From contig MAAN01000024.1 of assembly GCA_002163135.1 (NCBI GenBank), positions 1 through 64,000 on the forward strand: a DNA stretch of 64,000 nucleotides, in the 5' to 3' direction. The first letter of the stretch is position 1. Every line of letters begins with the position of its first letter. This document shows, piece after piece, positions 24,896 through 42,019 of the stretch. The DNA comes from Alphaproteobacteria bacterium 46_93_T64. Its GTDB lineage: Bacteria > Pseudomonadota > Alphaproteobacteria > Sneathiellales > Sneathiellaceae. The translations under genes and the position numbers were made by a program. Under the pieces are notes generated by a model. That model was given only the letters and a program-made list of their open reading frames with translations, was not told the origin of the DNA and did not search any database.

Positions 24896-26428
24896 ATGCA
24901 AGATATTATACAACAGCTTGAAGAAAAACGCGCAAAGGCCCGTCTCGGAGGCGGCCAGCGACGTATTGATACACAACATTCAAAAGGGAAATTAACTGCG
25001 CGGGAACGCATAGAATTTCTTTTGGACGAGGGATCATTCGAAGAGTGGGACATGTTCGTTGAACATCGTTGTACCGAATTTGGTATGGAAAATAATGTTA
25101 TCACCGGTGAAGGTGTTATCACGGGACACGGCACTATTCACGGCAAACTGGTTTTTGTTTTCTCTCAGGACTTTACTGTCTTTGGCGGATCACTTTCAGA
25201 ATATCACGCGAAGAAAATTTGCAAGGTTATGGATAAAGCCATGCAGGTTGGTGCGCCGATCATTGGATTGAACGATTCAGGCGGAGCCCGCATTCAAGAA
25301 GGCATTGATAGTCTTGCAGGGTATGCCGATGTCTTCCAGCGGAATGTGATGGCATCTGGTGTTATTCCTCAAATCTCAGTGATTATGGGCCCATGTGCTG
25401 GCGGTGCAGTTTACTCGCCCGCGATGACTGATTTTATCTTTATGGTTCGCGACAGCTCCTACATGTTTGTAACGGGACCGGACGTTGTGAAGACAGTTAC
25501 GAACGAGACTGTCACAGCAGAAGAGCTTGGCGGCGCTGGAACACATACAAGTAAATCCTCTGTTGCAGATAATGCCTATGATAATGACGTTGAAGCGTTG
25601 AGTGAAGTTCGCCGTCTTGTTGATATGTTGCCAGCTTCAAACCGTGAAAAATCTCCGGTCCGGGAAAGCTATGACAATCCAGATCGTAAAGAAATGTCGC
25701 TCGATACATTGGTTCCAGCCAATGCGAATAAACCATATGACATGATGGAGCTGGTCAAGAAACTCTCAGACGAGGGTGATTTTTTCGAAATACAGCCAGA
25801 TTATGCGAAAAATATCATTACCGGCTTCGCACGTATCGACGGCCAAACAGTTGGTGTAGTTGCTAACCAGCCAATGGTACTCGCAGGGTGTCTTGATATT
25901 GACAGTTCCCGTAAAGCAGCTCGCTTTGTTCGTTTTTGTGACTGCTTTAACATTCCAATTGTAACCTTGGTTGACGTGCCGGGCTTCTTGCCAGGCACAG
26001 CTCAGGAATATGGCGGAATTATCAAGCATGGTGCGAAATTACTTTATGCATATGCAGAGGCAACCGTTCCAAAAGTCACTGTGATTACACGCAAAGCCTA
26101 TGGCGGTGCTTATGACGTGATGGCGTCCAAGCATTTGCGCGGCGATGTGAATTATGCATGGCCATCGGCGGAAATCGCTGTGATGGGTGCTAAAGGTGCT
26201 GTTGAGATCATTTTCCGCTCCGAAATTGGCGATGATGAGAAAATACAGGAACGTACCGACGAGTATCAACGCAGATTTGCCAATCCATTTATCGCAGGAC
26301 ATCGTGGATTTATTGATGATGTGATTATGCCAAATAACACGCGTCATCGTATTTCCAGTTCTTTGCGTATGTTGAAAAATAAACAACTTGAAAATCCGTG
26401 GAAAAAACACGGCAACATCCCGCTTTAA
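24896..26428 (+). CDS. pccB: Propionyl-CoA carboxylase beta (carboxyltransferase) subunit
   Basis: Transfers carboxyl from biotin to propionyl-CoA giving methylmalonyl-CoA. 510 aa from ATG 24896 with AGGGAG at 24885-24890; the frame is open from 24851 but that part overlaps atp12. [20 protein letters not shown], the CoA-binding loop [19 protein letters not shown] and the C-terminal [20 protein letters not shown] plus [11 protein letters not shown] are typical of the propionyl-CoA type with the carboxylated-biotin pocket. Operon with pccA and an acylphosphatase. Confidence 0.95.
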
Positions 26429-26454
26429 GGCGATAAAAGGAAAGGTATAAGAAT

Positions 26455-28431
26455 ATGTTTGAAAAAATCCTGATCGCCAACCGTGGTGAAATCGCTTGCC
26501 GTGTTATTCGTACTGCACGCGACATGGGTATCAAGACGGTTGCCGTTTATTCAGATGCTGACGATGGTGCTATGCACATGAAAATGGCGGATGAAGCCGT
26601 CCACATCGGGCCCTCTGCTGCGGCTGAAAGCTATCTGATTATAGAAAAAATCATCGATGCTTGTAAACAAACCGGCGCGCAAGCTGTGCATCCGGGATAT
26701 GGTTTCCTGTCAGAAAATCAAGCGTTTGCAGATGCGTTGGAGAAAGAAAATATCGCGTTTATCGGCCCCGGTAAAAAAGCGATTGCGTCTATGGGCGATA
26801 AAATAGCCTCCAAGAAACTGGCGCTTGGGGCTGGTGTTAATACTGTCCCGGGTCACTTGGGTCTTATCGAAAATGCAGAACATGCGGTAAAGATTTCTTC
26901 GGAAATTGGTTATCCAGTCATGATCAAAGCATCTGCTGGCGGCGGCGGCAAAGGTATGCGCGTTGCCAATAATGATGACGAAGCACGCGAGGGTTTCCAA
27001 TCGGCTAAAAACGAAGCAATTTCGAGCTTTGGCGATGACCGCATCTTCATTGAAAAATTTGTTGTGGACCCGCGCCATATTGAGATTCAAGTGTTGGCAG
27101 ATAAACACGGCAACTGCATTTATCTGGGAGAGCGTGAATGCTCTATTCAACGACGCCATCAGAAAGTTATCGAAGAGGCTCCAAGTCCCTTTTTGGATGA
27201 GACACTTCGAAAAGCAATGGGTGAGCAGGCTGTGGCTCTTGCCATGGAAGTCGACTACCATTCTGCCGGTACTGTAGAATTTATCGTTGGCGCAGATCGG
27301 AGCTTCTATTTTCTCGAAATGAATACGCGTCTGCAGGTGGAGCATCCGGTGACCGAGCTGATCACAGGGGTTGATCTGGTCGAACAAATGATCCGTGTTG
27401 CCAATGGTGAAGCATTGTCTATGACGCAGAACGATGTGAAGCTGACAGGGTGGGCGATAGAAAGCCGCTTGTACGCAGAAGATCCTTATCGTGGTTTCTT
27501 GCCATCCATCGGACGTTTGAGTAAATATAACCCCCCAGTGGGCGACAACATTCGGGTTGATACCGGCGTTACCGAAGGGTCAGAGATCACAATGTTCTAT
27601 GATCCGATGATTGCCAAGCTTTGCACCTACGGCCCAGATCGTGCGACGGCGATTTCTGAAATGAGTAAAGCGCTGGATGCCTATGATGTGCAGGGTATTG
27701 CTCATAACATCAATTTCCTGAATGCAGTTTGCAATCATCCTCGTTTTAAATCCGGAAACATAACAACTGGATTTATCGCAGAAGAATATCCGGAAGGGTT
27801 CTTTGGCGCCGATGTGGATGACGACAGCTATAGAGCAATGGTTGCGATCGCTGCGACAGTTCATCTTCGGAGTGAAACTCGGGCAACATCCGGCGTAGCT
27901 GCAACCGCAGGAAGTGAATGGGTAGTTAGTCAGGGACTTGATCGTCATACAGACATCAGCATTGAAGATGCCGAGCATGGCATGGACATTACGGTAGACG
28001 GTAAAACACTTGCTGTCCGAACTGACTGGGTTCCAGGTGTCCGTCGCTTTGAAGCAGACATCAACGGCCGTGCCGTTGTTGCGTTAGTGGAGAATGCGAG
28101 AGGGAGTGTTCAAGTAACCCACAGCGGTGCCATGATCTCTCTTTCTGTTCGCCGCCCTCGCTTGGCAGAGCTTGCCAAGTTGATGCCGGTGAAAGTCGCG
28201 CCAGACATGTCCAAGTATCTGTTATGCCCGATGCCGGGGATGATTGTTGCTGTCAATGTTGAAGCGGGCGACGAGGTGAAGGCCGGTCAACCACTTGCCG
28301 TTGTCGAAGCAATGAAAATGGAGAATATTCTTCGCGCTGAACAAGACGGTGTTGTCGCTGTTGTGAATGCAGCAGCAGGTGATACACTTGCCGTAGACGA
28401 AGTAATTCTTGAGTTCGTTCAGGACGACTAA
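26455..28431 (+). CDS. pccA: Propionyl-CoA carboxylase alpha (biotin) subunit
   Basis: ATP-dependent biotin carboxylase plus biotin carrier, 658 aa. The carboxylase domain (1-450) has MFEKILIANRGEIACRVIR, ATP loop KASAGGGGKGMR and EMNTRLQVEHPVTE; a BT linker follows; the carrier domain (about 585-658) holds the biotin lysine in VEAMKMEN. Propionate from odd-chain acids, Val, Ile and Met would enter the methylmalonyl-CoA route. The last base is shared with the acylphosphatase start. Confidence 0.95.
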   Translation: MFEKILIANRGEIACRVIRTARDMGIKTVAVYSDADDGAMHMKMADEAVHIGPSAAAESYLIIEKIIDACKQTGAQAVHPGYGFLSENQAFADALEKENIAFIGPGKKAIASMGDKIASKKLALGAGVNTVPGHLGLIENAEHAVKISSEIGYPVMIKASAGGGGKGMRVANNDDEAREGFQSAKNEAISSFGDDRIFIEKFVVDPRHIEIQVLADKHGNCIYLGERECSIQRRHQKVIEEAPSPFLDETLRKAMGEQAVALAMEVDYHSAGTVEFIVGADRSFYFLEMNTRLQVEHPVTELITGVDLVEQMIRVANGEALSMTQNDVKLTGWAIESRLYAEDPYRGFLPSIGRLSKYNPPVGDNIRVDTGVTEGSEITMFYDPMIAKLCTYGPDRATAISEMSKALDAYDVQGIAHNINFLNAVCNHPRFKSGNITTGFIAEEYPEGFFGADVDDDSYRAMVAIAATVHLRSETRATSGVAATAGSEWVVSQGLDRHTDISIEDAEHGMDITVDGKTLAVRTDWVPGVRRFEADINGRAVVALVENARGSVQVTHSGAMISLSVRRPRLAELAKLMPVKVAPDMSKYLLCPMPGMIVAVNVEAGDEVKAGQPLAVVEAMKMENILRAEQDGVVAVVNAAAGDTLAVDEVILEFVQDD

Positions 28432-28709
28432 TGAAAACAGTTCACGCAATGATAACTGGCCGCGTACAAGGGGTTGGTTATCGTGCGTGGACAATTGACG
28501 AAGCGCGCCGGCTTGGACTTAAAGGGTGGGTGCGCAATCGCCTTGATCGCTCCGTAGAGGCGATGTTCCAAGGGGATGAGGCCAATGTAGAGGCCATGTT
28601 CGAAAAATGCTGGCAGGGGCCATTAATGGCCCGAGTGGTTGATATTCGGAAAAGAGATAAGGCCGAGGGCGAGATTTTTGACAGCTTTACGTCAAAATCG
28701 ACCCTTTAG
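28431..28709 (+). CDS. acyP: Acylphosphatase
   Basis: Small alpha/beta enzyme cleaving carboxyl-phosphate bonds. 92 aa with the signature [14 protein letters not shown] (catalytic Arg) and [17 protein letters not shown] (catalytic Asn). One-base overlap with pccA suggests co-expression; its 3' end overlaps the convergent lipB by 23 bases. Confidence 0.92.
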
Positions 28710-29343
28710 CTCCTTCTTCTAAAAAAACCTTCTCAAAACTGCTGCGAAGCTCAATATCAAATTCATGCATGGCGACAGGCAGCCCCTGATCGACGAGGGA
28801 GGTTACGCCGTGTTCTGTAATACCGCAGGGAACAATCCCTGAATAGTGGCTTAGATCCGGTTCCACGTTGATGGAAATGCCATGAAAGCTCACCCATTTG
28901 CGAACACGTACACCGATGGCTGCGATTTTGTCTTCCTTTGTGCCGTTAGTAATCCACACGCCAACACGGCCTTCACGCTTTTCGCCTTTCAGGTGATATT
29001 GGGCGAGAACATCAATGACCCAGTTTTCCAAATCCTGAACAAACGCGCGGATGTCTGATCCACGATTTTTTAAATCCAGCATTACGTAAGCAATTCGCTG
29101 ACCAGGGCCGTGATATGTATATTGGCCGCCGCGACCTGCATTATAGACAGGAAAAGCGTCAGGGCTTACCAGATCTATGGGATCTGCGCTAGTACCAGCA
29201 GTATATAGGGGCGGGTGCTCCAATAGCCAAACAAGCTCCTTGGCGCTGCCGTCACGTATGGCTGCAACCCTTGCCTCCATGTCGGCAAGAGCATCATCAT
29301 ACGGGATCAGATCGTCAGAAATTTTCCATTCTATTTCATGCAT
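28687..29343 (-). CDS. lipB: Lipoyl(octanoyl) transferase LipB
   Basis: Moves octanoyl from ACP to lipoyl domains. 218 aa; [20 protein letters not shown] pocket, Lys in [14 protein letters not shown] and the catalytic Cys in [15 protein letters not shown]. Convergent with acyP, 23-base overlap at the 3' ends. Confidence 0.95.
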
Positions 29344-29462
29344 GGCGTCTATATAGCATCATAGGCAAAGTTCCATCAAACTGGATATTTTGCTTTTGGT
29401 TAATAAAAATGTAACCATGACTGACAGATACTCGATACAACTTCAGTTATTTAGGTGCCATT

Positions 29463-29714
29463 ATGGATGATGACAAGGCTATTAAGGGCGTAGACGTCGA
29501 AATCTCGGTTGTTCTGGGAAAAGCTGTCATGCCTATTCATCAACTTTTGAAAATGGGCCGTGGTGCCGTTATTGAACTGGACACCGGTGTTGATGACGAC
29601 GCAATTGTTTTGGCAAACAATAAACCAATCGCTTATGGTGAAATTATTGTAGTCGATGATAATATTGGTGTTTCAATTACTGACAGGATAAGCACCAATC
29701 AGCAGGATTTTTAA
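29463..29714 (+). CDS. FliN-like SpoA-domain protein (flagellar switch)
   Basis: A single SpoA (FliN/FliM C-terminal) domain of 83 aa. The pattern VEISVVLGKAVMPIHQLLKM, GAVIELDTGVDD, VLANNKPIAYGEIIVVDDNI and GVSITDR follows FliN closely. FliN is the C-ring component that binds export chaperones and CheY partners. No flagellar gene is nearby and the protein lacks the N-terminal FliN region, so it could be the genome's only FliN, a second copy, or a switch for another apparatus. Confidence 0.8.
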   Translation: MDDDKAIKGVDVEISVVLGKAVMPIHQLLKMGRGAVIELDTGVDDDAIVLANNKPIAYGEIIVVDDNIGVSITDRISTNQQDF

Positions 29715-29785
29715 TCCTCGTTTTTCTGATATTCAACGGAATTCAGATTATTTTCCAACTTTATATAAAATATTGAATTCTGCTC

Positions 29786-29814
29786 TTGCCAGAGCGCTCA
29801 GTATTTGATATTTC
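29786..29814 (+). promoter_or_regulatory. Candidate promoter of tRNA-Leu
   Basis: TTGCCA (29786-29791) and TATTTC (29809-29814) are 17 bases apart, placing the transcript start about seven bases before the tRNA. Match to consensus is modest. Confidence 0.35.
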
Positions 29815-29827
29815 CCCTCTACCTCAA

Positions 29828-29914
29828 GCGGCCGTGGCGGAATTGGTAGACGCGCAGCGTTGAGGTCGCTGTCCGGTAACACGGGTGGAAGTTCGAGTCT
29901 TCTCGGCCGCACCA
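29828..29914 (+). tRNA. tRNA-Leu(GAG)
   Basis: 87 nt including an encoded CCA. Acceptor GCGGCCG (29828-29834) pairs with CGGCCGC (29904-29910). Anticodon stem CAGCG/CGCTG with loop TTGAGGT gives anticodon GAG at 29862-29864. The long variable arm and GTTCGAGTC T-loop are those of a class II leucine tRNA. A small hairpin (29917-29935) follows. An integrase gene lies directly downstream, as at many tRNA integration sites. Confidence 0.96.
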
Positions 29915-29942
29915 ACTCTCTGGAACTCCCAGAGAACCTAGG

Positions 29943-29987
29943 TTTCCTAACTTGTTGCACACCGTTTGGTGTAACAGGTTAAGGAAG
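29943..29987. repeat. Imperfect inverted repeat upstream of the integrase
   Basis: TTTCCTAACTTGTTGCACACC (given as positions 29943-29963) is an imperfect mirror of 29968-29987 (GGTGTAACAGGTTAAGGAAG) around GTTT. It lies between the tRNA and the integrase start and may be an integrase or excisionase operator or part of an attachment region. Confidence 0.45.
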
Positions 29988-29994
29988 CAGGGTA

Positions 29995-31313
29995 ATGAAA
30001 CATCCCATGACACAGAATCTCTTAAAACGTGGCCACACTTGGTATGTACGCTATGTCATCCCACGTGCGTCTCGCTCCAAGCTGGGCAAAGAATCTATTT
30101 CCCGAAGTCTGAAAACTCGTGACCTTGATGAAGCAAGGAAACGTAGACCTGCAGCTTTGGCTGAGATCATTGCTGAAGTTGACCTTATTGTTGATGCTGA
30201 GAAGTATTCAAAAGTAGCCATGATTGAAGAGGCGGCTGCATTTGCTGAAGAGATCAGATCGGCTCCAACAGATGAAAAAGCGGATTTAGCTACTTATGTG
30301 GCTTCCGACTGGGCAATGTACTTCCACGAGAAGAAGGGGTACGAGGCAGGGCGGTGTATGCAGATATCGCCTTGCGTGGCTCCATGCCAGTATCCAGCGC
30401 TGGGAAGCAGCATCTAGAATCCATTGAAGGGAAAGTGTCTCAAGGGACGATAGATGGGCGTAAGCGTTCCATCAGTACCTTTATCGAGAACATGGGCGAT
30501 GTTCCAATCGCAAACGTGTCGCCTAGGATGACAGCCTCGTGGCTGACAAATCATCTTGAGCCATCGGGTAAAGCTCCCAAGACGCTTGCTAAGTACATCG
30601 ATAACCTGAACCTCCTGTGGAAGTGGAGCTTTAGGCGGGAATGGTGCTCTGGTACAAGCCCATTTATGGATTTGAAATCAGAAATCCCGAAGGCAGAGAA
30701 GCATAAGAGGGGCTTTAGCGATGAGGCCCTTAAAGGGTTTTTGGGATATCTTCGTGGATTGCCATCGGCGAAACGAGTTCAGTATGAGGTGGCTCTCTTG
30801 CTTGTATACAGTGGCGCTAGGCTCGGTGATATCTGTGAACTGAAAGTGAGAAGTATCAAGAGCGAAAATGGCGAAGTCCATATCTTCAAAGGCAAAAGCC
30901 AAGCGGCTGAGCGCGTGTTGTTCTTCCATAATCCTGAGTGCTTAGAAATACTGAACCAAAGATGTGAAGGGAAAGAGCCAAATGATCAGCTTTTCCATGA
31001 ACTGAAAAGGGGAGGCGAGGATAACCGGTTAAGCCACGGCCTCAGCAATCGTATGCGGTACAGCCTTGAGAAGTTCATGCCAGATGCAAAGGCACAGGGC
31101 GTTGATATACACAGTATTAGGCGCTGGGCAGGGACTGTCTTTGACAACACTCCTGAGATCCACTCAGAGTTGGCCGATCGAATGGTAGGGCATAAGGCAG
31201 GTCGTTTGCTCTCAGATGTCTATTCCGATGGCCCTGAAAATACTAGATTGTCTGAGGGGTTTCGCATGTTTAGCGGGGCTGTTGAACTGCGGCTTTGCAA
31301 AATCGGATTTTGA
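29995..31313 (+). pseudogene. Tyrosine recombinase/integrase, frameshifted
   Basis: Two overlapping frames together make one phage-type integrase of about 440 residues. The first (29995 to TAG near 30417) gives the N-terminal arm-binding part (LLKRGHTWYVRYVIP, DUF6538-like). From about 30345 the coding moves to another frame, which continues to 31313 with the core-binding domain and a full catalytic domain: Arg in YSGARLGDI, Lys in FKGKSQA, HSIRR, the His in VGHKAG and Tyr in SDVYSDG. The break lies in GGCAGGGCGGTG around 30345-30354. Either a real inactivating frameshift, a sequencing error, or, less likely, programmed shifting. Directly downstream of tRNA-Leu and reading away from it. Confidence 0.85.
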
Positions 31314-31418
31314 CTTGGCATCAGTGGGTTTGTGAAGGGATTTTATGAATTCATTGATCTGTAGTTGAAGAGATATCTACAAGTCACTCCAAACAGTGGC
31401 TAGGAAGGCTGAATGGGC

Positions 31419-31616
31419 CTACGCCAAAAACTTCCCAACTTCGAATGCGAATAATGCTACGCAGACGACGAGGACGTAATTGACGGTTTGGAGGATACGT
31501 TTACTGCAATCCACAATCACTCTCTTGGTTTGCGGCAATTCCTGCCATATTGGGTCGAGTTTCAATTTGGCATCTTCTTCATCTTCAATTGAGCCCAATT
31601 CAACGGTTAAGCGCAA
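31419..31616 (-). CDS. Small C-terminally anchored membrane protein or remnant
   Basis: 65 aa from TTG 31616; the protein-like frame actually stays open about 23 more codons upstream (to a stop near 31684) without any ATG, GTG or TTG. It is acidic and helical (LGSIEDEEDAKLKLD) with one C-terminal membrane helix (YVLVVCVALFAFEVGKFLA). AAAGGATGA precedes the TTG closely. I do not recognise the family. A gene that lost its first codons, or a functional TTG-started small protein; part of the integrase-linked stretch. Confidence 0.4.
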   Translation of the reverse strand: MRLTVELGSIEDEEDAKLKLDPIWQELPQTKRVIVDCSKRILQTVNYVLVVCVALFAFEVGKFLA

Positions 31617-31748
31617 ATCATCCTTTAGTTCTTCCTGTGTATATTGAGTTATACTATCTGAGGTGCCCCAAATTCCTTAGACATTTTGAAGCGCAATGGA
31701 TGTCTGTTAACGTGGTCAGAACGGACCTGTCACTGAAGCCGCCTTGCA

Positions 31749-31774
31749 GGTCTGAACATGACCCAAAGCAGACC
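31749..31774 (-). promoter_or_regulatory. Hairpin downstream of the SBP/MFS operon
   Basis: GGTCTG (31749-31754) pairs with CAGACC (31769-31774) over a 14-base loop that contains TGACCCAAAG. It lies 27 bases after the last stop of the - strand operon but lacks a T-run. A similar-sounding element with TCCGCTTTTGG lies upstream of the same operon at 35715. Confidence 0.35.
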
Positions 31775-31800
31775 CTAAACTCGAAATGCTGCCAGGAATA

Positions 31801-32799
31801 TTAATTCACGATTTCGGCAATTTGTAACAAACTTAGTGGAGGCAGCCTTTGCAATTTTTTTGCAACAGCAAGATTAATGACGATAGCAAAATTCGTCATT
31901 AGAGCAACTGGTAAATCACCAGGTTCGACACCTTCGACAAGTATTTTTTCAGCCTGTCGTCCTGCAAGTTGTCCGACATCGTGGTATCGCGCGGCAACAG
32001 AAATCAATGCGTCTGACGAACGGACGTTGTCTTCATACGGGCTGAGCACGGGTAATCCGTTTTGCATAGACGCCTTTGTTAGAATGCCGGCATGATCCCG
32101 TAAGAATGATGACGAACCGAGATAAATAAAATCCACACCTGCAGCTTTCAATTCCTCAACTGCGGGGCCGATTGATTGTATATCTGGCTCGCCGTCAGCA
32201 TCGAGCGGCAATTGCTTTGATACCAGTTCGAATTCCATGGAATGAGCTAGTTTATCAACTTCATTTCGCTTCAAAATCGAATTTTTCTCATTTACGTTAT
32301 AGATCATTCCAAGACGCTTGAATTCTGGCATATAGGTCAAGATCGTTTCAATATTTACCGCTTCCGGGACTCGATTATAAGTTCCTGTAACATTCGGGCG
32401 CCCTGTACTTTTCAAACTTTTTACAATACCAGTGCCGACAGGATCAGCTACGATGGTAAATACGGTGGGAATTGTGTTGTTATACGCTGGGTTGTCCCTA
32501 TCCCCAATCATGCCGAGGATCTTGCTCGTAACGCTCGTTCCCCACGTCAAGATCAAGTCTACTTTAAGTGCTCTTGCTTCACTCAAAAATCCATCAATAG
32601 AGTTTTTCCTTCTATTGGCATCACGCATGATGAATTCCACATCGACGCTTCGATTGATCAGATATTTTTGAAAACCGTGACATGCATCTTCACATCCACG
32701 CCACGTCACAATCATGACTTTGTATTGTGATGCCGCGACTCCATTGATCGTACAACAAGCAAAAATGAACGCATAGAGTAAGACTGCAATAGACTTCAC
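31801..32799 (-). CDS. ABC transporter substrate-binding protein (ABC_sub_bind type)
   Basis: Exported type I periplasmic binding fold, 332 aa. A signal peptide (about 1-23, AVLLYAFIFACC ... VAA) precedes YKVMIVTWRGCEDACHGFQK; PTVFTIVADPVGTGIVKSL, RPNVTGTYNRVP and RLGMIYNVNEKNS are hallmarks of the TrpX/ABC_sub_bind family, which often bind aromatic or other small ligands. No ABC permease or ATPase is beside it. The start overlaps the end of the sensor-MFS gene by four bases (last gene of a three-gene operon), suggesting that it presents its ligand to that protein or its sensor partner. Function otherwise unknown. Confidence 0.88.
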   Translation of the reverse strand: MKSIAVLLYAFIFACCTINGVAASQYKVMIVTWRGCEDACHGFQKYLINRSVDVEFIMRDANRRKNSIDGFLSEARALKVDLILTWGTSVTSKILGMIGDRDNPAYNNTIPTVFTIVADPVGTGIVKSLKSTGRPNVTGTYNRVPEAVNIETILTYMPEFKRLGMIYNVNEKNSILKRNEVDKLAHSMEFELVSKQLPLDADGEPDIQSIGPAVEELKAAGVDFIYLGSSSFLRDHAGILTKASMQNGLPVLSPYEDNVRSSDALISVAARYHDVGQLAGRQAEKILVEGVEPGDLPVALMTNFAIVINLAVAKKLQRLPPLSLLQIAEIVN

Positions 32800-34784
32800 G
32801 TCTCACCTCGTTTCACTTTTTCATATCCATTGCCAGCAATAAACAAGACAATCCCTACAAGTACGACGGCGGCAAGTGCCCGCACTATGAATTCCACGTC
32901 AAGATTGTTTAACAAAAGCGCGCTTATAGCAAGGCCAACGACGGCACCACACCGTTCCACTAACCGCATCGGAGTGAGACAAGAGGTTTGCCCTCCGCCT
33001 GCATCTAGAGCCAAAACGTACAAAGGAATTCGCATAACTGCATGGCCCAGTCCAAGAACGGTCACCGAAAAAACAATAGGCCAGACCCCTTGCCAAAAAT
33101 TCATAGAGTAAAGGCCGACAACACTAATGAGTGCACCACAAACAACAAGGATAACCATGTGTTTTGGGGTCTTGGCGAAATGCGAAAACAAGGGGCCAAG
33201 AACCACTGTGCATAGGTAATATAGCATTACCACTCGGGCGATATCCGCAGGCGACAAGCCTAATTCAGAAAGCATGAGCGGCGTCATATACCATATAAAT
33301 ATTGCCACTGTGGCGCTCATGGGGGCTGCAACACCAATAACAAGAGCCCAGTAGCTCAATCCATAAGAGGCTGTTGCTTGTATCCTGCTATCAGGCAGTG
33401 GCAAAGCTCGTTCAGGATCACCTGCGCGACCGCGCATCGCGAAAACGCTCGTGAGTCCTGCAACACTTGCAATAAATGCCCCTGAAAAAAAGGCGATTTC
33501 GAAGCCAAAACGTCCAGAAATCACACCTCCCATCGCAGAACCACAAAGCACGCCTGCAAATATTACGGTAATATATGCGCTTATCCCTGTGTTGTTGCCG
33601 TTGGTTCCAGAGGCGCGAACGGCAAATTCTTGGCAGGCAATGGTTGCAGTTGCGTAAAATAGCGCCATAACGCCACGCCAGAAGGTAATCTCAAGAACGC
33701 TGTCGCTCCATCCCATCATTATAAGTGCTAGGATGGTTGGCGGAACAGATGCAAAGAACAGGTTGCGCGCTCCAAATCGGCGCGACAATCGGCCTCCGAA
33801 CGGCGAAAGAGCTGCCAAAGCAATCAGATACATCAAGATCGGACCAGCCGCAGCAAATTCAGAGCTTAGCCATAAAGGGCGGGCAGCATCGCGCGCATAA
33901 ATTGGCAAAAATGACGTCGATATTTCAGTGGCCGCTGAAAAAAGAAACAACGTTAGCCGTATATCTGCGACATCAGATAGCCTAAGCTTGTGTGGTGCGT
34001 GATCAGCAATCATAGTCCCCAGCTTATCGCTCACAATCGACCGAGCATTTGCGGGCAATCCCCTCATGCGTGAAGCAAGGTCGAACGCCCGATCATTAAG
34101 ACGTTCAGCTAACCGCGAGAGTGTGCCTCCGCCACCATGATCAATGGTATGCAAAAAACGGTTGGAAACCTGTTCCTCCAGTAACGCGTATATGCGGGTC
34201 AAGGGCTTATCTACAGAAGCAATTGCGACGGCCAAGACCAATTCAAGGGCTATCAACATTGCAACCAAAGCAATGACTGTAACGTCCAAAAATACCGATC
34301 GGATTCGCGATTGAATAAATAGAGGGCTGATTTTGATCGTTATGTCGCCAACAGTTTTATTTCCATCCAAAATAGGCAACTTGAACAATGTCTCGGAGAA
34401 TGCAAATACTTCCCCAAGATATGATTTGTCTTCTGATGTAGAGGGAGATGATCCTACAACCATCGCCAATATTTCACCAGACACACTGGAAACAGCAATA
34501 TGTTCGACTTCATCAAATTTGTGGAGTACCTCTCCTAAATAACGCTCTAACCCGACGATCTCGTCCAACTTTATACCAATATCAAGAGCACGCTGAATGT
34601 CTTCTCGTGCTATCGAAGCAATAAGTCGTGTCCTTTTAGATAGTTCAGGTTCAACTGCACGATCAAAGGTAATAATTGTACCAGCCCCGACCATCAACAC
34701 GGAGACTGCTATAATCGCAAACAATATTGCTGACACACGAATTCGAAAGGATTCTCGATTGAAGTTGTTGCCATGCATCTTCAT
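32796..34784 (-). CDS. Sensor-MFS fusion protein
   Basis: 662 aa with an unusual architecture. Residues 17-40 are a membrane helix; 41-160 an extracytoplasmic sensor-like domain (IQRALDIGIKLDEIVGLERY, then IAVSSVSGEILAM), 163-190 a second helix, 190-270 a cytoplasmic HAMP-like linker (VDKPLTRIYALLEEQVSNRF). From about 275 to 655 is a major facilitator superfamily domain with roughly 12 helices, including the GGRLSRRFGARNLFF loop between helices 2 and 3. Such input modules normally drive kinases, cyclases or chemoreceptors; here the output would be a transporter. Four-base overlaps on both sides with its operon partners. Substrate and direction unknown. Confidence 0.85.
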   Translation of the reverse strand: MKMHGNNFNRESFRIRVSAILFAIIAVSVLMVGAGTIITFDRAVEPELSKRTRLIASIAREDIQRALDIGIKLDEIVGLERYLGEVLHKFDEVEHIAVSSVSGEILAMVVGSSPSTSEDKSYLGEVFAFSETLFKLPILDGNKTVGDITIKISPLFIQSRIRSVFLDVTVIALVAMLIALELVLAVAIASVDKPLTRIYALLEEQVSNRFLHTIDHGGGGTLSRLAERLNDRAFDLASRMRGLPANARSIVSDKLGTMIADHAPHKLRLSDVADIRLTLFLFSAATEISTSFLPIYARDAARPLWLSSEFAAAGPILMYLIALAALSPFGGRLSRRFGARNLFFASVPPTILALIMMGWSDSVLEITFWRGVMALFYATATIACQEFAVRASGTNGNNTGISAYITVIFAGVLCGSAMGGVISGRFGFEIAFFSGAFIASVAGLTSVFAMRGRAGDPERALPLPDSRIQATASYGLSYWALVIGVAAPMSATVAIFIWYMTPLMLSELGLSPADIARVVMLYYLCTVVLGPLFSHFAKTPKHMVILVVCGALISVVGLYSMNFWQGVWPIVFSVTVLGLGHAVMRIPLYVLALDAGGGQTSCLTPMRLVERCGAVVGLAISALLLNNLDVEFIVRALAAVVLVGIVLFIAGNGYEKVKRGET

Positions 34785-35566
34785 TTTTCAGAACCCCTTT
34801 CCGTCGCAAGCGATTTGCCGATAGTGTCGTAGTTGTCTTCTGTGTGCATTAGCAGTTCATAGAGTTCCATGTTTGCGTCATGCTTGCTATGCAATGAATT
34901 ATCCCAACCCTGTCCTGCGGCATGGCGCCAAGCGGCTTTTTCAAAATTTGTTATATTTTCCTCTATGCTTTCGAATTGTAAAAGTTGCGGACGCAGTGCA
35001 AAACGAAACAAAAAATATCCAGCAAGGGTTGATAACGCCAACGTCAAAATTGCCACGAAAGCCAGTTCAGCGGTCATTGCCAGAACTCGCGTAAAGCTAC
35101 CACCTCTTGGATAGACGATCATAATGCCACCAGCAGTCGCGCCTTTGGAGGAAACGATATCAATAGAACTTAGAAATCCTTCCTTGGTTTCTTTGTACCA
35201 AGGTTCACCTTGTGCGGCATTTCTTGTCACCATAGCCTCGGCCGATATTCGTGCCGGAGCCTCAACTGAGGTGCTGTGCACGACGGCACCAGAAGCATCG
35301 AACACAAGAATATTGATAATCTCTTCATCGAACTGGCGAGCGCGTTCAAGCAAAGCTTTTGCATTGCGCACGGTTGATAGGGGTAAACCGATTTTTGCAG
35401 CGGCTTCAAACGGTGCAGCTGTGCGCTCGGCCAACACGCCCAAACGATCGCCAACCAAACCGGAATTGATGTTTCCAAATTGAAGCGCGGAAAGTCCAAC
35501 AAAAATAATGAGGACCACCAAATTAACAAGTATTGTGGCAATCCATATACGCCTCAAGAGCGCCAT
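34781..35566 (-). CDS. Membrane sensor protein without output domain
   Basis: 261 aa: helix 8-30, extracytoplasmic domain about 31-160, helix 163-189, then a 70-residue cytoplasmic tail (SIEENITNFEK and an acidic helix-rich end). The domain has AAAKIGLPLSTVRNAKALLE followed by NILVFDASGAVVHS, the same plan as the sensor part of the adjacent MFS fusion (DIGIKLDEIVGLERYL, then IAVSSVSGEIL). No kinase, cyclase or MCP module follows. First gene of the operon; GGGGGGA precedes the ATG. Likely a partner of the fusion protein (inference). Confidence 0.75.
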   Translation of the reverse strand: MALLRRIWIATILVNLVVLIIFVGLSALQFGNINSGLVGDRLGVLAERTAAPFEAAAKIGLPLSTVRNAKALLERARQFDEEIINILVFDASGAVVHSTSVEAPARISAEAMVTRNAAQGEPWYKETKEGFLSSIDIVSSKGATAGGIMIVYPRGGSFTRVLAMTAELAFVAILTLALSTLAGYFLFRFALRPQLLQFESIEENITNFEKAAWRHAAGQGWDNSLHSKHDANMELYELLMHTEDNYDTIGKSLATERGSEK

Positions 35567-35714
35567 GCACCAATCCCCCCAGCATAGTCTCTCGAATAGC
35601 TTTCTTAGATTACATCATTAATTATGCCCGGAATCAATACATTGCCTGACACATACGCAGCAATGAGTGAAATTTACACAAGCTTTTGAAAGGAGATGCG
35701 TAAAAGGCTTTATG

Positions 35715-35736
35715 TCCGCTTTTGGCACAAAACGGA
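35715..35736. repeat. Imperfect hairpin element TCCGCTTTTG/CAAAACGGA
   Basis: TCCGCTTTTG (35715-35724) faces CAAAACGGA (35728-35736) over a GCA loop with one bulged C. It sits upstream of the - strand sensor operon; a related TGACCCAAAGCAGACC element lies just beyond the operon's 3' end. Short elements of this look recur near ABC_sub_bind genes in other alphaproteobacteria as far as I recall, which is unchecked. Confidence 0.35.
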
Positions 35737-35911
35737 ACAAAGAACAGCCTCGATTCAGGACACGGAAACGTCTGCTGTCGCAGGAAAAACAGACTGTATG
35801 ATCTGGTCATGTCTGGCTGGCCAAGCCTTCCATCCCAAGTTTTGGCATTTGCAAGTTAAAGCTTGAGACTGGAGCAATTGAAGGAACAGTCCTAACTATT
35901 TGGTTTTTATG

Positions 35912-36001
35912 GTAAATTTCTGAGCGGATATATATAAGTGCGACCTTGCAATCCGTCCCGCTAGACCCCCGTCCAAGTTCATTTTTGTCCCCCTGTATGG
36001 G
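35912..36001. repeat. Duplicated ~90-bp intergenic element, copy A
   Basis: Shares with copy B (37278-37366) the blocks AAATTTCTGAGC, TATATATA, CCCCCGTCCAAGT and CATTTTTGT in the same order and nearly the same spacing (one gap). It lies about 350 bases upstream of the sensor operon (- strand) and before no obvious + strand gene. Confidence 0.75.
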
Positions 36002-36105
36002 ACCGCATGATTGACCTGAGATCGACATAACTCTTTCTATGCGCCTGTTTGGTCATAATACTGGCAAGAAGCACACTGACGTCTATTTCAATGGACCAAA
36101 GAGAC

Positions 36106-36155
36106 ATCGCGTCCCAACAGCTTCAAATTGTACATTGAAGCTGTTGGGACGCGAT
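36106..36155. repeat. Perfect 21-bp inverted repeat with 8-base loop
   Basis: Positions 36106-36126 are the exact reverse complement of 36135-36155; the arms contain CCCAACAGCTTCAA and the loop is ATTGTACA. It lies 50 bases after the stop of the receiver gene on the - strand and has no T-run, so it is an unusual terminator, a protein-binding palindrome or a remnant of a mobile element. Confidence 0.85.
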
Positions 36156-36204
36156 TGGATGTTTCCTAAATCAGCGTTTTTCCTTCGTGCGCAGACTGGA
36201 AAAT

Positions 36205-37146
36205 CTACGACCCAGCGAACACCCGCTGTTTGATTAGCACGATGATTTCGGACGCGGCGGCGTTGGATTTACTACTGTTTTCAAAAGATAATTTCAAGGC
36301 TTGACCGACCAGCGACAAGATTTCGATATCTTGTGTAACTTTCGATCCCACGATAACCGATAAGATATCCATCAATATGTTACATAGCTCACTGATATGA
36401 TGATAATCTGTTTGCTCCAGTTTTTGTGCGAAAGACTGCACCAGTGGATTAAGCTGGCTTAAAGTCGGGCCAGCCTCTTCGGGATTGGCTACAACCTCAT
36501 TGATAAGGCTTTGAATAATCTCGCCGTCAAGGGTCGCGCTGCGGTTAGATATATCCCGGCTTGCTTCCTGTATCAGTTTAGTGATCCGTGTGTTGGATTC
36601 CAAAAAACCATCGGCTTTCATACGAAGAGCATTGGGAACGCTGATCAAACTGTCCCGAGCGGCATCTGTTCGTTCCGCGCTGTGACGATTGGGTCCTATA
36701 TAGTTTGCATTTACAACATATAAAAGGTCACGGTTGAGTAACGCAGTCATCCGTCTATTTATGTCGTTAACTGATAGAGGTTTTATCACTACGTCATCTG
36801 CACCGACGTTTATGGCGTTACGGGCGAGTTCCGAGCGGGCGTCAGAAATTAAAGTAATAATGGGTAGGAATATGTTTTTTCCATGCTTCCCTGATCGTAC
36901 CGCTTTGATGAAATCAACAGTGTCTTCATCTAAGAATATGTCATCGATGACGACAACATCACAATGGTCGACTGTTATTATTTTGAGAGCCTCATCAAAG
37001 TTTTGACGCACTGTTTTAATATGATTAAATCCGGCGTTTTCAAACAGATGACGAACAGTGTCATTTGGACTCAAAATCAAAATATTAACTGATGCCTTTG
37101 ACGCATTTAGGATTTTTGTGACCATTTTATTCACCGCCAAACACAT
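36205..37146 (-). CDS. Receiver-domain protein with unknown helical C-terminus
   Basis: 313 aa. Residues about 20-140 are a CheY-like fold: ILILSPNDTVRHLFENAGF, VVVIDDIFLDEDTVDFIKAV (acceptor Asp), IITLIS (switch Thr/Ser) and VIKPLS (Lys). The acidic pair normally found after the first strand is replaced by Ser-Pro, so Mg-dependent phosphorylation may be impaired. The last 120 residues are helical without a recognised DNA-binding or enzymatic domain. Start ATG 37146 is used; ATG 37125 is an alternative and neither has a strong ribosome binding site. No histidine kinase is adjacent. Divergent from the LuxR-type gene, sharing copy B upstream. Confidence 0.72.
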   Translation of the reverse strand: MCLAVNKMVTKILNASKASVNILILSPNDTVRHLFENAGFNHIKTVRQNFDEALKIITVDHCDVVVIDDIFLDEDTVDFIKAVRSGKHGKNIFLPIITLISDARSELARNAINVGADDVVIKPLSVNDINRRMTALLNRDLLYVVNANYIGPNRHSAERTDAARDSLISVPNALRMKADGFLESNTRITKLIQEASRDISNRSATLDGEIIQSLINEVVANPEEAGPTLSQLNPLVQSFAQKLEQTDYHHISELCNILMDILSVIVGSKVTQDIEILSLVGQALKLSFENSSKSNAAASEIIVLIKQRVFAGS

Positions 37147-37541
37147 CGATGAAGGAAGGGTAGAAGAATACTGTTAAAGTAATAATATGAATCCGAATTT
37201 CAAATTTTATCTGACTAAATGAATTAAGTCGTCGAACTAAATATCTTCAAAAATATTCACCATTGATATTTTCCACCGCAAATTTCTGAGCAGGTATATA
37301 TACGCATACCCTCGCGGTTTATCCCCCTTGCCCCCGTCCAAGTACATTTTTGTTTCCCCGTTCGGAATTTTTCGTAATTCATTCAATTATTTACTTATTG
37401 CAAATGAATTTATACATTAATAATGCTGCATATATAATCGTGGCACATCCCCCGATCGTGGAAGAAAAGCAATCTAAGGTGGTTCGTTCAGATTTGAGAC
37501 GGACAAGGGTTAGAGTTTCTTTGTACCTTGGGGGGGATAAA
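37147..37541. other. Divergent intergenic region before receiver and LuxR genes
   Basis: 395 bases containing repeat copy B at 37278-37366. The frame of the LuxR gene is open upstream to 37350, but that extension is not protein-like and runs through the repeat, so I treat it as leader. Confidence 0.5.
37278..37366. repeat. Duplicated ~90-bp intergenic element, copy B
   Basis: Second copy of the element at 35912. It lies 132-220 bases upstream of the receiver gene (- strand) and about 175-265 bases upstream of the LuxR-type gene (+ strand). Identical blocks of 12, 8, 13 and 9 bases make chance similarity unlikely. A shared promoter or operator is the simplest reading. Confidence 0.75.
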
Positions 37542-38687
37542 ATGAAAGAACAATTAGACGCTATTGCCTTGTCTTATGAGGCAGATCTGGAGCCTGGTAA
37601 ATGGCCCGAGGCTTTAGACGCGATCGCTATAATTGGTCAAGCTAAAGGGACTTTTTTTGGATTAAACGACACAAGTAATCATGCTTTGTATAACTTCGGT
37701 TTATTCAGTGGCAGTCTTCCAGAAAATAAAGTTCAAGAATATTTACAAACTCACATCGAGTTTGAATCCAAGATGTGGGCAGCCGCGGTCCAACATCTAA
37801 ATAAGGCGCTGGAATACACCGGTGTTTCAATGCAAACGCTTTTTGAAGAAGATGACAGTCGTTATGATGCGCAAGCGGAAAAAGATATTCTTGAAATATT
37901 AGGGGTCTCTCAAAGATTTGCGGTAATGCTCAATCACAATGCCCCTTGGAGCGATGGCATCGCCTTGCAACATGGTGATGAAAGTGCAGATATACCCGCG
38001 CATGCGTTTGCGAATATTTCTAAAATTGCCCCATATTTCACACGTATTGTATCTGTTGTTCGACCAGCCTATCTGTTGCAAGCTGAGCACGGCATGATGT
38101 TGGACGTTCTGGATAAATTGGCTATCGGTGTCGCTGTTGTTTCTGGTGATGGGACGTTGATTTTGAAGAATGTGAGCTTTGAGCGAATTCTTGATTTAGA
38201 TTCCCTCTATCTTGATCCATCAATGCGATTACGGGCTTATGAAAATAATTTGGACGACACATTAAGACGATCTATGAGCGGTACGTCCAAGATGAGCGTT
38301 GGTCTTGAATTTGATCGCGGGGAATATATCAGCGTTCCTGTGAAAGAGCGGCCTCATCCCGTTAGTTTGGAAGTGTCACCGCTCGGTCGGTCTGGGAAAG
38401 ATAGTCCACTAACCGGCTGGTCCATAATATTTGCAATTGATCCTCATTGGAGGTTAGTGACAGACACGGAAAATCTTGCGCAGTCTTATTCACTGACGAC
38501 AACTGAAAAAGAAGTCTGTTCGATGTTATTGAAGGGATTTTCTAATCGAGAAATTGGCGAAGTAAGATCCATTGGGATGGAGACGGTTAAAAGCCATGTC
38601 TCTAACTTGTTAGCCAAGACGTACACAAAAAATCGAACTGAATTGGCGCGTCTGGCAGCGATAGCCGAAATACCACTGCTGGACTAA
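37542..38687 (+). CDS. LuxR-family transcriptional regulator with PAS-like region
   Basis: 381 aa from ATG 37542, preceded by a G-run (37530-37536). Residues 1-180 are of unknown fold; 185-290 looks PAS-like (MLDVLDKLAIGVAVVSGDGT). The C-terminal GerE-type HTH (about 318-378) is clear: YSLTTTEKEVCSMLLKGFSN, then VKSHVSNLLAKTYTKNRTEL. It lacks a receiver and an acyl-homoserine lactone domain. Divergent from the degenerate receiver gene; both may act with the nearby sensor operon (inference). Confidence 0.82.
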   Translation: MKEQLDAIALSYEADLEPGKWPEALDAIAIIGQAKGTFFGLNDTSNHALYNFGLFSGSLPENKVQEYLQTHIEFESKMWAAAVQHLNKALEYTGVSMQTLFEEDDSRYDAQAEKDILEILGVSQRFAVMLNHNAPWSDGIALQHGDESADIPAHAFANISKIAPYFTRIVSVVRPAYLLQAEHGMMLDVLDKLAIGVAVVSGDGTLILKNVSFERILDLDSLYLDPSMRLRAYENNLDDTLRRSMSGTSKMSVGLEFDRGEYISVPVKERPHPVSLEVSPLGRSGKDSPLTGWSIIFAIDPHWRLVTDTENLAQSYSLTTTEKEVCSMLLKGFSNREIGEVRSIGMETVKSHVSNLLAKTYTKNRTELARLAAIAEIPLLD

Positions 38688-38754
38688 ATCTATCAATATG
38701 TTGAGGCGTATAAAATGAATTACGTCAAATAGTGAGCTTGTAAATATTTAATGT

Positions 38755-38791
38755 TCTCGTTATGTTCTCTTTTGTAAAAACCATTACGAGA
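38755..38791 (+). promoter_or_regulatory. Inverted repeat covering the GFA ribosome binding site
   Basis: TCTCGTTATG (38755-38764) faces CATTACGAGA (38782-38791) with one mismatch and a 17-base loop. The right arm runs into the Shine-Dalgarno GAGAGGA (38788-38794) of the next gene, so the structure could mask it. Might also be an operator. Confidence 0.4.
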
Positions 38792-38800
38792 GGATGTAGA

Positions 38801-39205
38801 ATGATCAAGGGAAGTTGTCTTTGCGGGAAAGTGAAGTTTCAAATCACGGGCGAGCCATTTTCATTAAGTTATTGCCATTGTTCGAGATGCCGAAAAGCCG
38901 CCGGCGTATTTTCTGCGGTCTTGATCGGGAAAGCTGATGACCTTTCGGTAACAGAGGGGCAAGAGGCAATAGCCAAGTTCATCCCTGAGGGAGAGTGGAA
39001 ACTTGAACGGTGTTTCTGTAAGGAATGCGGCACTTCTCTGGGAGATATGGCGACAGGTGATATTTATGTAGTTGCTGCCTCCGCCTTGGATGATGACCCA
39101 AAAATACGACCAACGGTTCATATCCACACAGCATCAAAGCCTGATTGGTATGAGATCGTCGATGATTTGAAGAAATTCGAAGGCGATTATCTTCCTGACA
39201 AATAG
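38801..39205 (+). CDS. GFA/CENP-V family zinc protein
   Basis: 134 aa from ATG 38801 (GAGAGGA six bases upstream); an in-frame ATG at 38762 adds 13 residues. Cysteine pattern GSCLCGKVKF, YCHCSRCRK and CFCKECGTSL marks the glutathione-dependent formaldehyde-activating fold that binds structural and catalytic zinc. Many members are not formaldehyde enzymes, so the substrate is unknown. Followed by a strong terminator. Confidence 0.88.
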   Translation: MIKGSCLCGKVKFQITGEPFSLSYCHCSRCRKAAGVFSAVLIGKADDLSVTEGQEAIAKFIPEGEWKLERCFCKECGTSLGDMATGDIYVVAASALDDDPKIRPTVHIHTASKPDWYEIVDDLKKFEGDYLPDK

Positions 39206-39222
39206 GACTGACTCGGTCGCAA

Positions 39223-39261
39223 AAAAACCTTTCTCGCGAAATTGAGAAAGGTTTTTATTTA
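39223..39261 (+). terminator. Intrinsic terminator after the GFA gene
   Basis: AAAAACCTTTCTC (39223-39235) pairs perfectly with GAGAAAGGTTTTT (39244-39256) over GCGAAATT, followed by ATTTATT. The A/T symmetry lets it act also for the - strand ParB-like gene that ends at 39320. Confidence 0.9.
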
Positions 39262-39319
39262 TTCCTCTACCTCAACATATCTGTGTGAGGTGTGATAGTT
39301 GTTGCGGGTATTCTGGAAA

Positions 39320-39583
39320 CTAGAATTTTTTTGCTTGAACAATATATGCTTCGATTATCTTCTCACCTAAGGACATGCATGCCTGTAATCGGTGATATCC
39401 TTCGATTAGAACGTACCGGTCTTTTCCCAAGCGTACCTGAATGGGGCGTAATTGACCGTTCTCAAGGATGTCTTCCGCCAGTTCTTCCACTTTAGCGTCT
39501 TTAAGCGTTTTGCGTCGTGGAGCTGGAACATAGATCTCATCAACTGAAATTTCATGTATCTGCACAGGTTCATTCCTTGCCAT
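39320..39583 (-). CDS. Stand-alone ParB N-terminal (ParB/Srx) domain protein
   Basis: 87 aa consisting only of the ParB/sulfiredoxin-type nucleotide-binding fold: ISVDEIYVPAPRRKTLKDAK, VEELAEDILENGQLRPIQV and the GYHRLQACMSLG box (normally GERRxRA in ParB). No HTH, no partner ParA. A CTPase/ATPase role or a kinase-like role as in other single-domain members is possible; function unknown. Confidence 0.78.
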   Translation of the reverse strand: MARNEPVQIHEISVDEIYVPAPRRKTLKDAKVEELAEDILENGQLRPIQVRLGKDRYVLIEGYHRLQACMSLGEKIIEAYIVQAKKF

Positions 39584-39698
39584 CTAAGGTAGTCGCAACA
39601 GTCATCCAAATATGATGTTTGTGATCTTGTCAGTGTCTTTCCTAAAAAGGAAGAGCCAAGTTGCATGAAGCATGCGTAGTTGGCGGATGACTGTGATT

Positions 39699-40892
39699 TT
39701 ATCCCGCCTTTCCATCAGATCTTGGGGACAGAAGGATCGGAGTGTAAATGATTAAGTACAATACCCAAGCCACTACCCAGCTGATCCCTGCAAGTGCGAG
39801 ACCTGCCTCATAAAAATCGGGCAAGAATAATGGGGTCAGAATTCTTGAGAGCAGGGACAGGATCATAGCCAAGTAAGCAACAGTAATCAGCGGATGAATG
39901 ATTAAGGGTCTGCCAGTATGACCAAGAGCAATACGGGACATCATTCCAAGGATCATAACGCCAAGACCACCGACTGTGAAGACATGTTGCGCCAGCACCT
40001 CGGGAAGTAAATCAGTGCCCAGAGAAAGAGCTTCTGCAAGAAATCCCAGACCCATAAAGGCGTAGCCAATATGTAAAATCCACATCATGGGATCTGAGGT
40101 TGTATGGTGCCCTTGCCAGTAGGACAATCGAATAAGGATCAACACACCTGTCAGAACATTTAGGGTGGTAAGAAGGAATTCATCCGTAGGGAAAGCACTT
40201 GCTACGACTGTAATTAGGCAGCTTATGATGGTTACGCGATCAATCCACTCTGGGGTTGCCGTCGTTACTTTTTTATCGCGACGATCGAGCCAGTTTTGTG
40301 TGAAAAATGGAATGACACGGCCGCCAATAACAACTGTCATCAATATGAGCAGGCCGATGGATAGGCGAATGCCGACACCTGCTGTATCTTCTCCCCATCC
40401 CAGTTCTTCTATGTGGATAAGTGTGTTTCCTATCATTATGAGAAGCAGCAAGGGTATAAAGCCGAGGTTACGCCAAAGTTTTTGAGTGATGATGGGCTTG
40501 GCAATAGTGAAAGCTAGGGCGGGAATCAAAAGAAGATCTATCAAAGCTACAATTTCTGCCGGAAATTTGGCAGAGAACACTATGGCAATGCGCCCAGCAA
40601 ACCATAGTAGAAACAAAAATATGAGCTGAGCCCCCCGAATACGAGGCGTTCCAGTCCAGACAGGAACTGCTGTTGTGAGGAATCCTGCAACGATGGCAAT
40701 AATCACACCGAAAATAAGTTCATGCGCATGCCAAATAGACAAAGGCATTGATACTATACGGTCTAGTATATCTGTCATTCCTGACATCTGCGCTGACCAT
40801 AAACTCATGGTACTCACAGCATAGAATGCTGCGGCAATAAAGAAGATGCGAAACCCGCTTTCGAAAAGAGGGTGCGTGATTTTGTCTTGCAT
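39699..40892 (-). CDS. nnrS: NnrS family membrane protein
   Basis: Heme- and copper-binding polytopic protein linked to nitric oxide stress and denitrification. 397 aa with about twelve membrane helices; start HPLFESGFRIFFIAAAFYAV, the IWHAHELIFGVI motif with conserved His residues, and MSRIALGHTGRPL near the C-terminus are diagnostic. No nor or nir genes are in the window. Confidence 0.92.
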   Translation of the reverse strand: MQDKITHPLFESGFRIFFIAAAFYAVSTMSLWSAQMSGMTDILDRIVSMPLSIWHAHELIFGVIIAIVAGFLTTAVPVWTGTPRIRGAQLIFLFLLWFAGRIAIVFSAKFPAEIVALIDLLLIPALAFTIAKPIITQKLWRNLGFIPLLLLIMIGNTLIHIEELGWGEDTAGVGIRLSIGLLILMTVVIGGRVIPFFTQNWLDRRDKKVTTATPEWIDRVTIISCLITVVASAFPTDEFLLTTLNVLTGVLILIRLSYWQGHHTTSDPMMWILHIGYAFMGLGFLAEALSLGTDLLPEVLAQHVFTVGGLGVMILGMMSRIALGHTGRPLIIHPLITVAYLAMILSLLSRILTPLFLPDFYEAGLALAGISWVVAWVLYLIIYTPILLSPRSDGKAG

Positions 40893-41043
40893 AATGAATG
40901 TATCACCGCAGTTATTAGCCTAATTCCTAATTCAGAAAATAAGGCGTTTGAGGCCATTGTTACAGGTAAATATGCGATGCGTGACAATGTGCCGCAAAAC
41001 ACAAAACTGGTTGCCAATATTGGAGCGATATCGAGCTGCGGAG

Positions 41044-41930: not shown

Positions 41931-42019
41931 TCCTCGAAATGGAGGTTAGGTTTATGAGCTATATAGTGTAGGTAATCGCAAGAAATAGAGGTGCCAAATA
42001 TTACCTCATGATCTATGTA

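Follow-up and report, generated by a model that had tools for sequence, protein, structure and literature searches.

What does a periplasmic binding protein do when its gene shares an operon with a membrane sensor and a sensor-transporter fusion? The question is raised by a stretch of 64,000 nucleotides (the window) from Alphaproteobacteria bacterium 46_93_T64 (contig MAAN01000024.1, positions 1 to 64,000 of the forward strand). It contains three genes on the - strand, which we call S1, S2-MFS and SBP. S1 (34781-35566, 261 residues) encodes a sensor protein with a transmembrane segment (TM), a predicted periplasmic single Cache domain, a second TM and cytoplasmic helices, and is devoid of an output domain. 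It overlaps by 4 bases (34781-34784) with S2-MFS (32796-34784, 662 residues), a fusion of an N-terminal sensor (S2) to a transporter of the major facilitator superfamily (MFS). This gene in turn overlaps by 4 bases (32796-32799) with the gene of the binding protein SBP (31801-32799, 332 residues, GTG start). An earlier note on this DNA had described this arrangement, which the open reading frames and both junctions bear out, and had proposed that ligand capture by the binding protein is read by one or both sensors and gates transport by the MFS part.

The three genes recur together in other genomes. We analyzed two sets of loci, labeled with L-numbers, which overlap (Sneathiella sedimenti, for example, is present in both), so that their counts are not additive. 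The SBP-led set comprises the best 80 of 109 relatives retrieved with a profile of nine SBPs; by record titles these come from Alphaproteobacteria, Gammaproteobacteria and, in a few cases, deltaproteobacterial metagenome-assembled genomes (MAGs). The MFS-led set comprises 58 loci, including five from a first family search and plasmid searches, with L018 left out. Because loci of the module family had been used to train the SBP and S1 profiles, these serve to classify loci, not as independent proof. In the SBP-led set the MFS family adjoins the SBP in 79 of 80 loci, the exception being L182 (Marinomonas gallaica) with an SBP alone and no MFS. Both sensor domains are present in 74 of the 80 loci, and a contig edge truncates five of the six others. 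The exact order S1, S2-MFS, SBP on one strand is kept in 49 of the 80, with a 4-base overlap at the first junction in 30 and at the second in 19 of these 49. The MFS-led set gives a similar picture, since an SBP was found in 53 of 58 loci and in 50 of the 53 that bear sensors; the other three (L055, L099, L118) are cut by contig ends. Co-occurrence of the genes elsewhere, on which the proposal of the earlier note depended, is therefore well documented.

In 12 of the 80 loci (11 by a stricter test) S1, S2 and MFS lie in one reading frame, and the SBP gene is convergent in two of these 12. S. sedimenti encodes S1 and S2-MFS as one chain of 973 residues, on which the SBP gene converges, and Nitratidesulfovibrio vulgaris pDEVAL01 carries an SBP gene followed by a chain of 1012 residues with two sensor regions. 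The order S1, S2-MFS, SBP with a 4-base S1/S2-MFS overlap was found in Vibrio sp. THAF190c and in Azospirillum brasilense, where the second junction overlaps by 4 bases too. Among plasmids, 22 records were matched by tblastn with the fusion, and eight of these matches extended over 80% or more of its length. A first contig scan with the fusion alone as query gave no match. In a phylum sample, 12 of 398 genomes carry a match at E 1e-30 and 9 of 299 at 1e-40; at the latter threshold 36 of 385 did so among Alphaproteobacteria and 10 of 369 in the class of Vibrio (the samples count the window's genome where it belongs). Within the window's own family a strong match was obtained in only 2 of 24 other genomes; in the first of these the module is a fusion toward which the SBP gene converges, and the second is cut by a contig end.

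Is the transporter simply a common MFS protein? A profile of the MFS part only, run against 142 alphaproteobacterial genomes, yielded 16 matches with more than 100 bits, the window among them, which all lie in frames of at least 613 residues; the next match scored 65 bits. An S1-type sensor domain is present in every one of the 16 family members, and for 13 of them an SBP is encoded no more than about 1.5 kb away. Of the remaining three, L211 is truncated by its contig, and L214 and L217 have an SBP at a greater distance. Conversely, none of the 14 generic MFS loci (those generic matches for which loci were returned) had a sensor or an SBP within about 1.5 kb. That the transporter belongs to an ordinary MFS subfamily and has a long N-terminus, the alternative that the earlier note had itself raised, was rejected on the basis of the score gap and these 14 loci, and the sensor folds described below also speak against it. 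We conclude that the MFS of the module is a discrete family.

Window S1 matched no Pfam family significantly (dCache_1 at 0.058), and across the S1 family dCache_1 was found at E 0.01 in 5 of 56 sequences (best 7.7e-05) and sCache_3_2 in one of 56. The AlphaFold2 model of S1, based on 56 sequences (55 of 58 S1 sequences plus that of the window), reached a pLDDT of 93.5 and a pTM of 0.73 and displays helices and strands in Cache order. Foldseek and VIA matched it to the extracytoplasmic sensor domains of WalK, KinD, CitA, DcuS and DctB (Z 12-14, root-mean-square deviation (rmsd) 2.3-5.1, 116-161 residues). According to this model, S1 has a Cache sensor fold between two TMs, in agreement with its earlier description as a membrane sensor lacking an output domain.

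S2 occupies residues 1-262 of the fusion (33999-34784, boundary approximate). Family alignments and the model of the natural S. sedimenti fusion suggest an N-terminal TM, a Cache-like domain, a second TM and a HAMP-like linker. This model (957 residues; pLDDT 89.6, pTM 0.87) was built from 38 sequences, namely 11 fused ones, that of the window and 26 of 63 split S2-MFS sequences, and contains two Cache-like units, a linker and a full MFS, consistent with the TM-sensor-TM plus MFS layout that had been read from the window. The assignment of S2 as Cache-like derives from the strand order in this model of a homologous fusion. Pfam detected MFS_1 in all 38 S2-MFS and fusion sequences, sCache_3_2 in three, Cache_WalK in one and HAMP in one (2.7e-05); in the model a pair of helices separates the MFS from the exit helix of S2. 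The exit helix carries D167 in every row of the 38-sequence alignment that has a residue at that position, and E181 in 87%. Window S1 and S2 showed no similarity by BLASTP; their kinship becomes visible only when family profiles are used, as 6 of 8 separate S1 proteins were matched by the S2-MFS profile (3e-5 to 2e-9). S1 and S2 are probably the two halves of one putative Cache heterodimer.

The permease domain spans residues 263-662 of the fusion (32796-33998). In the window protein Pfam found MFS_1 (5.9e-17, 62 bits, residues 278-595 only) and no other domain, and the match to TIGR00880 (2.7e-05) stayed under the cut-off. The MFS part of the S. sedimenti model is nearest to VMAT2 (VIA Z 41.5, rmsd 3.1, 380 residues), with NorA (Z 38.5), SotB (Z 36.5) and MdfA matched in the range Z 36-40. 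By sequence the nearest solved MFS proteins are mostly exporters (NorA 2e-20, YajR 6e-18, VMAT, EmrB), and R276, R370, R517, R607, E610 and R611 are conserved in the 38-sequence alignment. Model and matches thus indicate an MFS fold of DHA1-like type. The module has this fold and its nearest sequences in common with the DHA1 exporters NorA, MdfA and SotB and the vesicular VMAT, in which neither Cache sensors nor an SBP are known. The MFS has diverged less than the sensors (mean distance 0.63 compared with 0.74 and 0.73), as expected for a working permease. Since its closest sequence relatives are drug:proton exporters, regulated export appears somewhat more likely than import.

The third gene had been taken to encode an ABC_sub_bind protein, and it indeed matches PF04392 (4.3e-26, 92.3 bits against a cut-off of 25.9), as do nine of ten other module SBPs above the cut-off (the exception is L041). 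Its N-terminus looks signal-like by eye. It is the single PF04392 protein of the whole genome, so that the term orphan used in the earlier note is appropriate. It matches the TrpX family of NCBIfam, a tryptophan SBP, only weakly (93 bits, with a cut-off of 390). Both cysteines of a WRGCExxC motif, which the window SBP carries, are present in 97% of 69 SBP homologues, partly retrieved by the motif itself, and the motif is missing in many SBPs of the MFS-led set. A prediction of the ligand was rejected, because the nearest solved sequences (3lkv, 6hni, 3lft) are too distant for ligand transfer. ATPases of the ATP-binding cassette (ABC) type were sought by a regular-expression scan for their motif, permeases not being searched for; the motif was absent from the window stretch and from all 58 MFS-led loci and present in 4 of 80 SBP-led loci (L140, L144, L173 and the MFS-less L182). 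That a nearby ABC partner had been overlooked was rejected on the basis of the window stretch and the 76 negative SBP-led loci, and we conclude that no ABC partner is regularly associated with the module. No match was obtained in window positions 24001-44000 with profiles of our own making, which covered SpoIIE, GGDEF, EAL, HATPase, class III cyclase and parts of the type VI secretion system (T6SS).

If the SBP does not regularly serve an ABC transporter, which part of the module is its partner? We compared distances in the 69 of 80 SBP-led loci that have all four domains. Correlations were 0.93 for S1-S2, 0.88 for both S1-SBP and S2-SBP, 0.83 for S2-MFS, 0.78 for S1-MFS and 0.77 for MFS-SBP, and none of the permutations exceeded 0.161. 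Given the MFS, the SBP still correlated with S1 (partial r 0.71) and S2 (0.67), whereas the SBP-MFS correlation given S1 and S2 was 0.16 (0.05 to 0.27 in subsamples). The SBP follows the sensors more than the MFS, which favors the sensors as its partner. These data, together with the single-chain fusions, make a physical link between SBP and sensors plausible. BLASTP with each of the three window proteins placed L124 first and L126 (a Geobacteraceae MAG) and L127 in the top four, all three ranking ahead of the congener S. sedimenti. That the three proteins share their nearest loci is as expected of a unit that moved as a whole.

We tentatively propose, at slightly less than an even chance, that the three genes form one envelope complex, a sensor-controlled MFS permease in which the SBP is read by a Cache heterodimer. 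The SBP would bind a small molecule in the periplasm and dock on the Cache heterodimer, to which S1 and the N-terminus of the fusion would each contribute one domain. The resulting change might travel along the S2 exit helix, where D167 and E181 are conserved, and the HAMP-like linker into the MFS, whose transport would be switched by it. The conserved unit, the predicted Cache fold of S1 and Cache-like fold of S2 and the lack of a regular ABC partner are supported by the computations, as are the fusions and the co-variation of SBP and sensors; SBP docking, the ligand, gating, transport by the MFS and its direction we infer.

The genes around the module vary. Neighbors were assigned with home-made profiles, of which examples were checked by Pfam, and the labels GNAT-like, TssK, ClpV, SctU and SctT were given by eye; all neighbor figures are raw counts without background rates. 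T6SS genes lie near the module in 27 of 80 SBP-led loci (VgrG 22, DUF6931 20, TssA 16, Hcp 15) and in 7 of 58 MFS-led loci, and in Epibacterium ulvae the trio is located between VgrG/DUF6931 genes and TssA/Hcp/TssB genes. SpoIIE genes are found in nine of the 80 SBP-led loci and in 15 of the 58 MFS-led ones, and the MFS-led set also has HATPase_c_2 (anti-sigma) in six and STAS in five of its loci. The S2-MFS gene of L034 overlaps the start of a SpoIIE gene, and L085 has a second pair resembling S1 and S2-MFS, with the gene of a dCache-HAMP protein only a few bases behind it. Profiled signaling enzymes are absent from 68 of 80 SBP-led and 36 of 58 MFS-led loci, and no common signaling partner was found among eight scanned neighbors of the nearest relatives L124, L126, L127 and L128. 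Hemerythrin-domain proteins are encoded near the module in L124 (5177-5791) and L126 (1808-2917), joined to GGDEF in the latter. With such changing company, the trio itself looks like the unit. A role as a mere T6SS accessory was rejected, since the window's own genome has no VipB and 53 of 80 SBP-led loci are without profiled T6SS genes.

Further neighbors were noted in passing. A D-Ala-D-Ala-ligase-like gene (one example checked by Pfam) is present in 11 of 58 loci (L040, L041, L042, L095, L098, L100-L102, L104, L106, L107), in eight of the 11 on the same strand and within 40 bases upstream of the module. GNAT-like genes occur in nine of 58 MFS-led and one of 80 SBP-led loci, and the GNAT-like protein compared with Pfam gave no match; in L017 (9025-11060) such a gene follows the SBP gene, and in Azospirillum an ATP-grasp gene comes next. 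It is possible that a small amide product is made beside the module. Type III secretion is represented by an annotated CesT chaperone in Nitratidesulfovibrio (L019, 1963-2433) and by SctU/SctT-like genes in L034 (8350-10205).

In the window itself, two genes lie upstream of the operon, one for a receiver-domain protein (36205-37146) and one of LuxR type that ends at 38687. Just 3' of the receiver-domain gene, at about 36110-36165, a long hairpin-like inverted repeat was seen by eye, possibly a terminator. On the other side, 29828-31313 holds a tRNA-Leu(gag) and then an integrase-like gene that is divided between two overlapping frames (Phage_integrase 9.4e-06, under the cut-off), probably a tRNA island with a broken integrase. 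Placed behind these genes, the operon looks like a genomic island. Its GC content equals that of the window (0.464 and 0.466), hence composition shows no sign of recent transfer.

Several observations do not sit easily with a permease switched through its sensors. Co-variation also arises from joint inheritance and shared history. The sensor-less relatives L105 and L112 of the MFS-led set still have SBPs nearby, so the link to the SBP may not need sensors, and other sensor-less relatives (L122, L123 and, by annotation, L018) have none. Second copies in L035, L085 and L168 have diverged so far that they no longer match MFS_1, and the modeled MFS fold is also close to the symporters and uniporters DgoT, MCT and G6PT (Z 36-40) and NupG. 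Second S1- or S2-MFS-like copies were seen beside the module in L035 (7859-10664), L168 (6942-9032), L085 (1448-4095) and L196 (6984-8918), the last of which still matches MFS_1 strongly. The diverged copies would suit a receptor, in which the SBP and the Cache pair sense, while the MFS part relays the signal as a transducer or scaffold to partners in the cytoplasm such as a SpoIIE phosphatase, a cyclase, a diguanylate cyclase or secretion machinery. SpoIIE, HATPase_c_2, STAS and T6SS genes near part of the loci, the overlap in L034 and the arrangement in L085 point the same way. However, most loci of both sets and the surroundings of the window operon lack any profiled signaling enzyme, the one SpoIIE of the window's genome, which has no T6SS VipB, lies on another contig, and the higher conservation of the MFS compared with the sensors is as expected of a working permease. 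We consider such a receptor unlikely, but a serious competitor.

The SBPs beside L105 and L112, the constant neighborhood of SBP and MFS, the lack of a regular ABC partner and the likeness to import symporters would also fit an SBP-dependent importer, an MFS counterpart of TRAP (tripartite ATP-independent periplasmic) and TTT (tripartite tricarboxylate) transporters, in which the MFS receives the ligand from the SBP and the Cache pair serves as a docking platform only. Against this, the SBP varies together with the sensors, and when these are accounted for it shows little co-variation with the MFS, and the nearest solved MFS sequences are mostly from exporters; we judge an importer rather improbable. 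Finally, the genes might be mere neighbors or decayed island cargo that lack physical coupling. The position of the window copy behind tRNA-Leu and a frame-split integrase-like gene, the scarcity of strong matches in the window's family, the solitary SBP of L182 and the broken MFS frames of L131 and L154 could be read in this manner. Such an explanation is very improbable in view of the 79 of 80 loci with co-occurrence across Alphaproteobacteria, Gammaproteobacteria and deltaproteobacterial MAGs, the single-chain fusions and the co-variation.

How does a sensor-controlled MFS permease compare to known systems? SBPs are described as serving ABC, TRAP or TTT transporters or as stimulating receptors (PMC9602780). 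The module resembles TRAP and TTT systems in combining an SBP with a secondary transporter (PMC9602780), but its permease is of the MFS_1 type in 38 of 38 sequences scanned by Pfam, which sets it apart from both, and two Cache sensors are added. TrpX-type ABC importers use the same SBP family, while the module has no regular ABC partner. Closest in working are GlnH-GlnX and transporter-kinase fusions such as CbrA, none of which is known to have this make-up. In the GlnH-GlnX-PknG system of Corynebacterium glutamicum an SBP acts with a membrane protein that has two TM-sensor-TM units in one chain, modeled as an internal dimer (PMC9769921). The likeness lies in an SBP with two TM-sensor-TM units; GlnX senses through four-helix bundles and has a kinase as output (PMC9769921), whereas the module shows a predicted Cache fold in S1, a mixed helix-strand S2 and an MFS. 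The SLC5-STAC histidine kinases CbrA, CrbS and RpuS (PMC13022988, PMC7096432, PMC5715377, PMC9100948) and an Amt-kinase fusion (PMC5764959) unite transporter and signaling parts in one protein and have the transporter domain joined to a kinase. In the module the sensors precede the MFS, no kinase domain was found (Pfam detected only MFS_1 in the window fusion), and the SBP is part of the unit. Among titles and opening abstracts of open-licence PubMed Central papers we found no description of an SBP-Cache-MFS unit, and the two texts searched on Vibrio proteolyticus T6SS clusters make no mention of MFS proteins or transporters.

It is possible, although doubtful, that the module represents a new class of SBP-linked systems in which a Cache heterodimer directly gates an MFS, spread as a mobile cassette and employed as a chemical trigger of T6SS clusters and SpoIIE partner-switching circuits. 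If an SBP-Cache-MFS unit of this kind is real, it would add an MFS route to those served by SBPs and would place sensor and transporter in the opposite of their usual order, with the transporter as the output. Its position beside T6SS genes in 27 of the 80 SBP-led loci may then offer such clusters a route to read a chemical cue.

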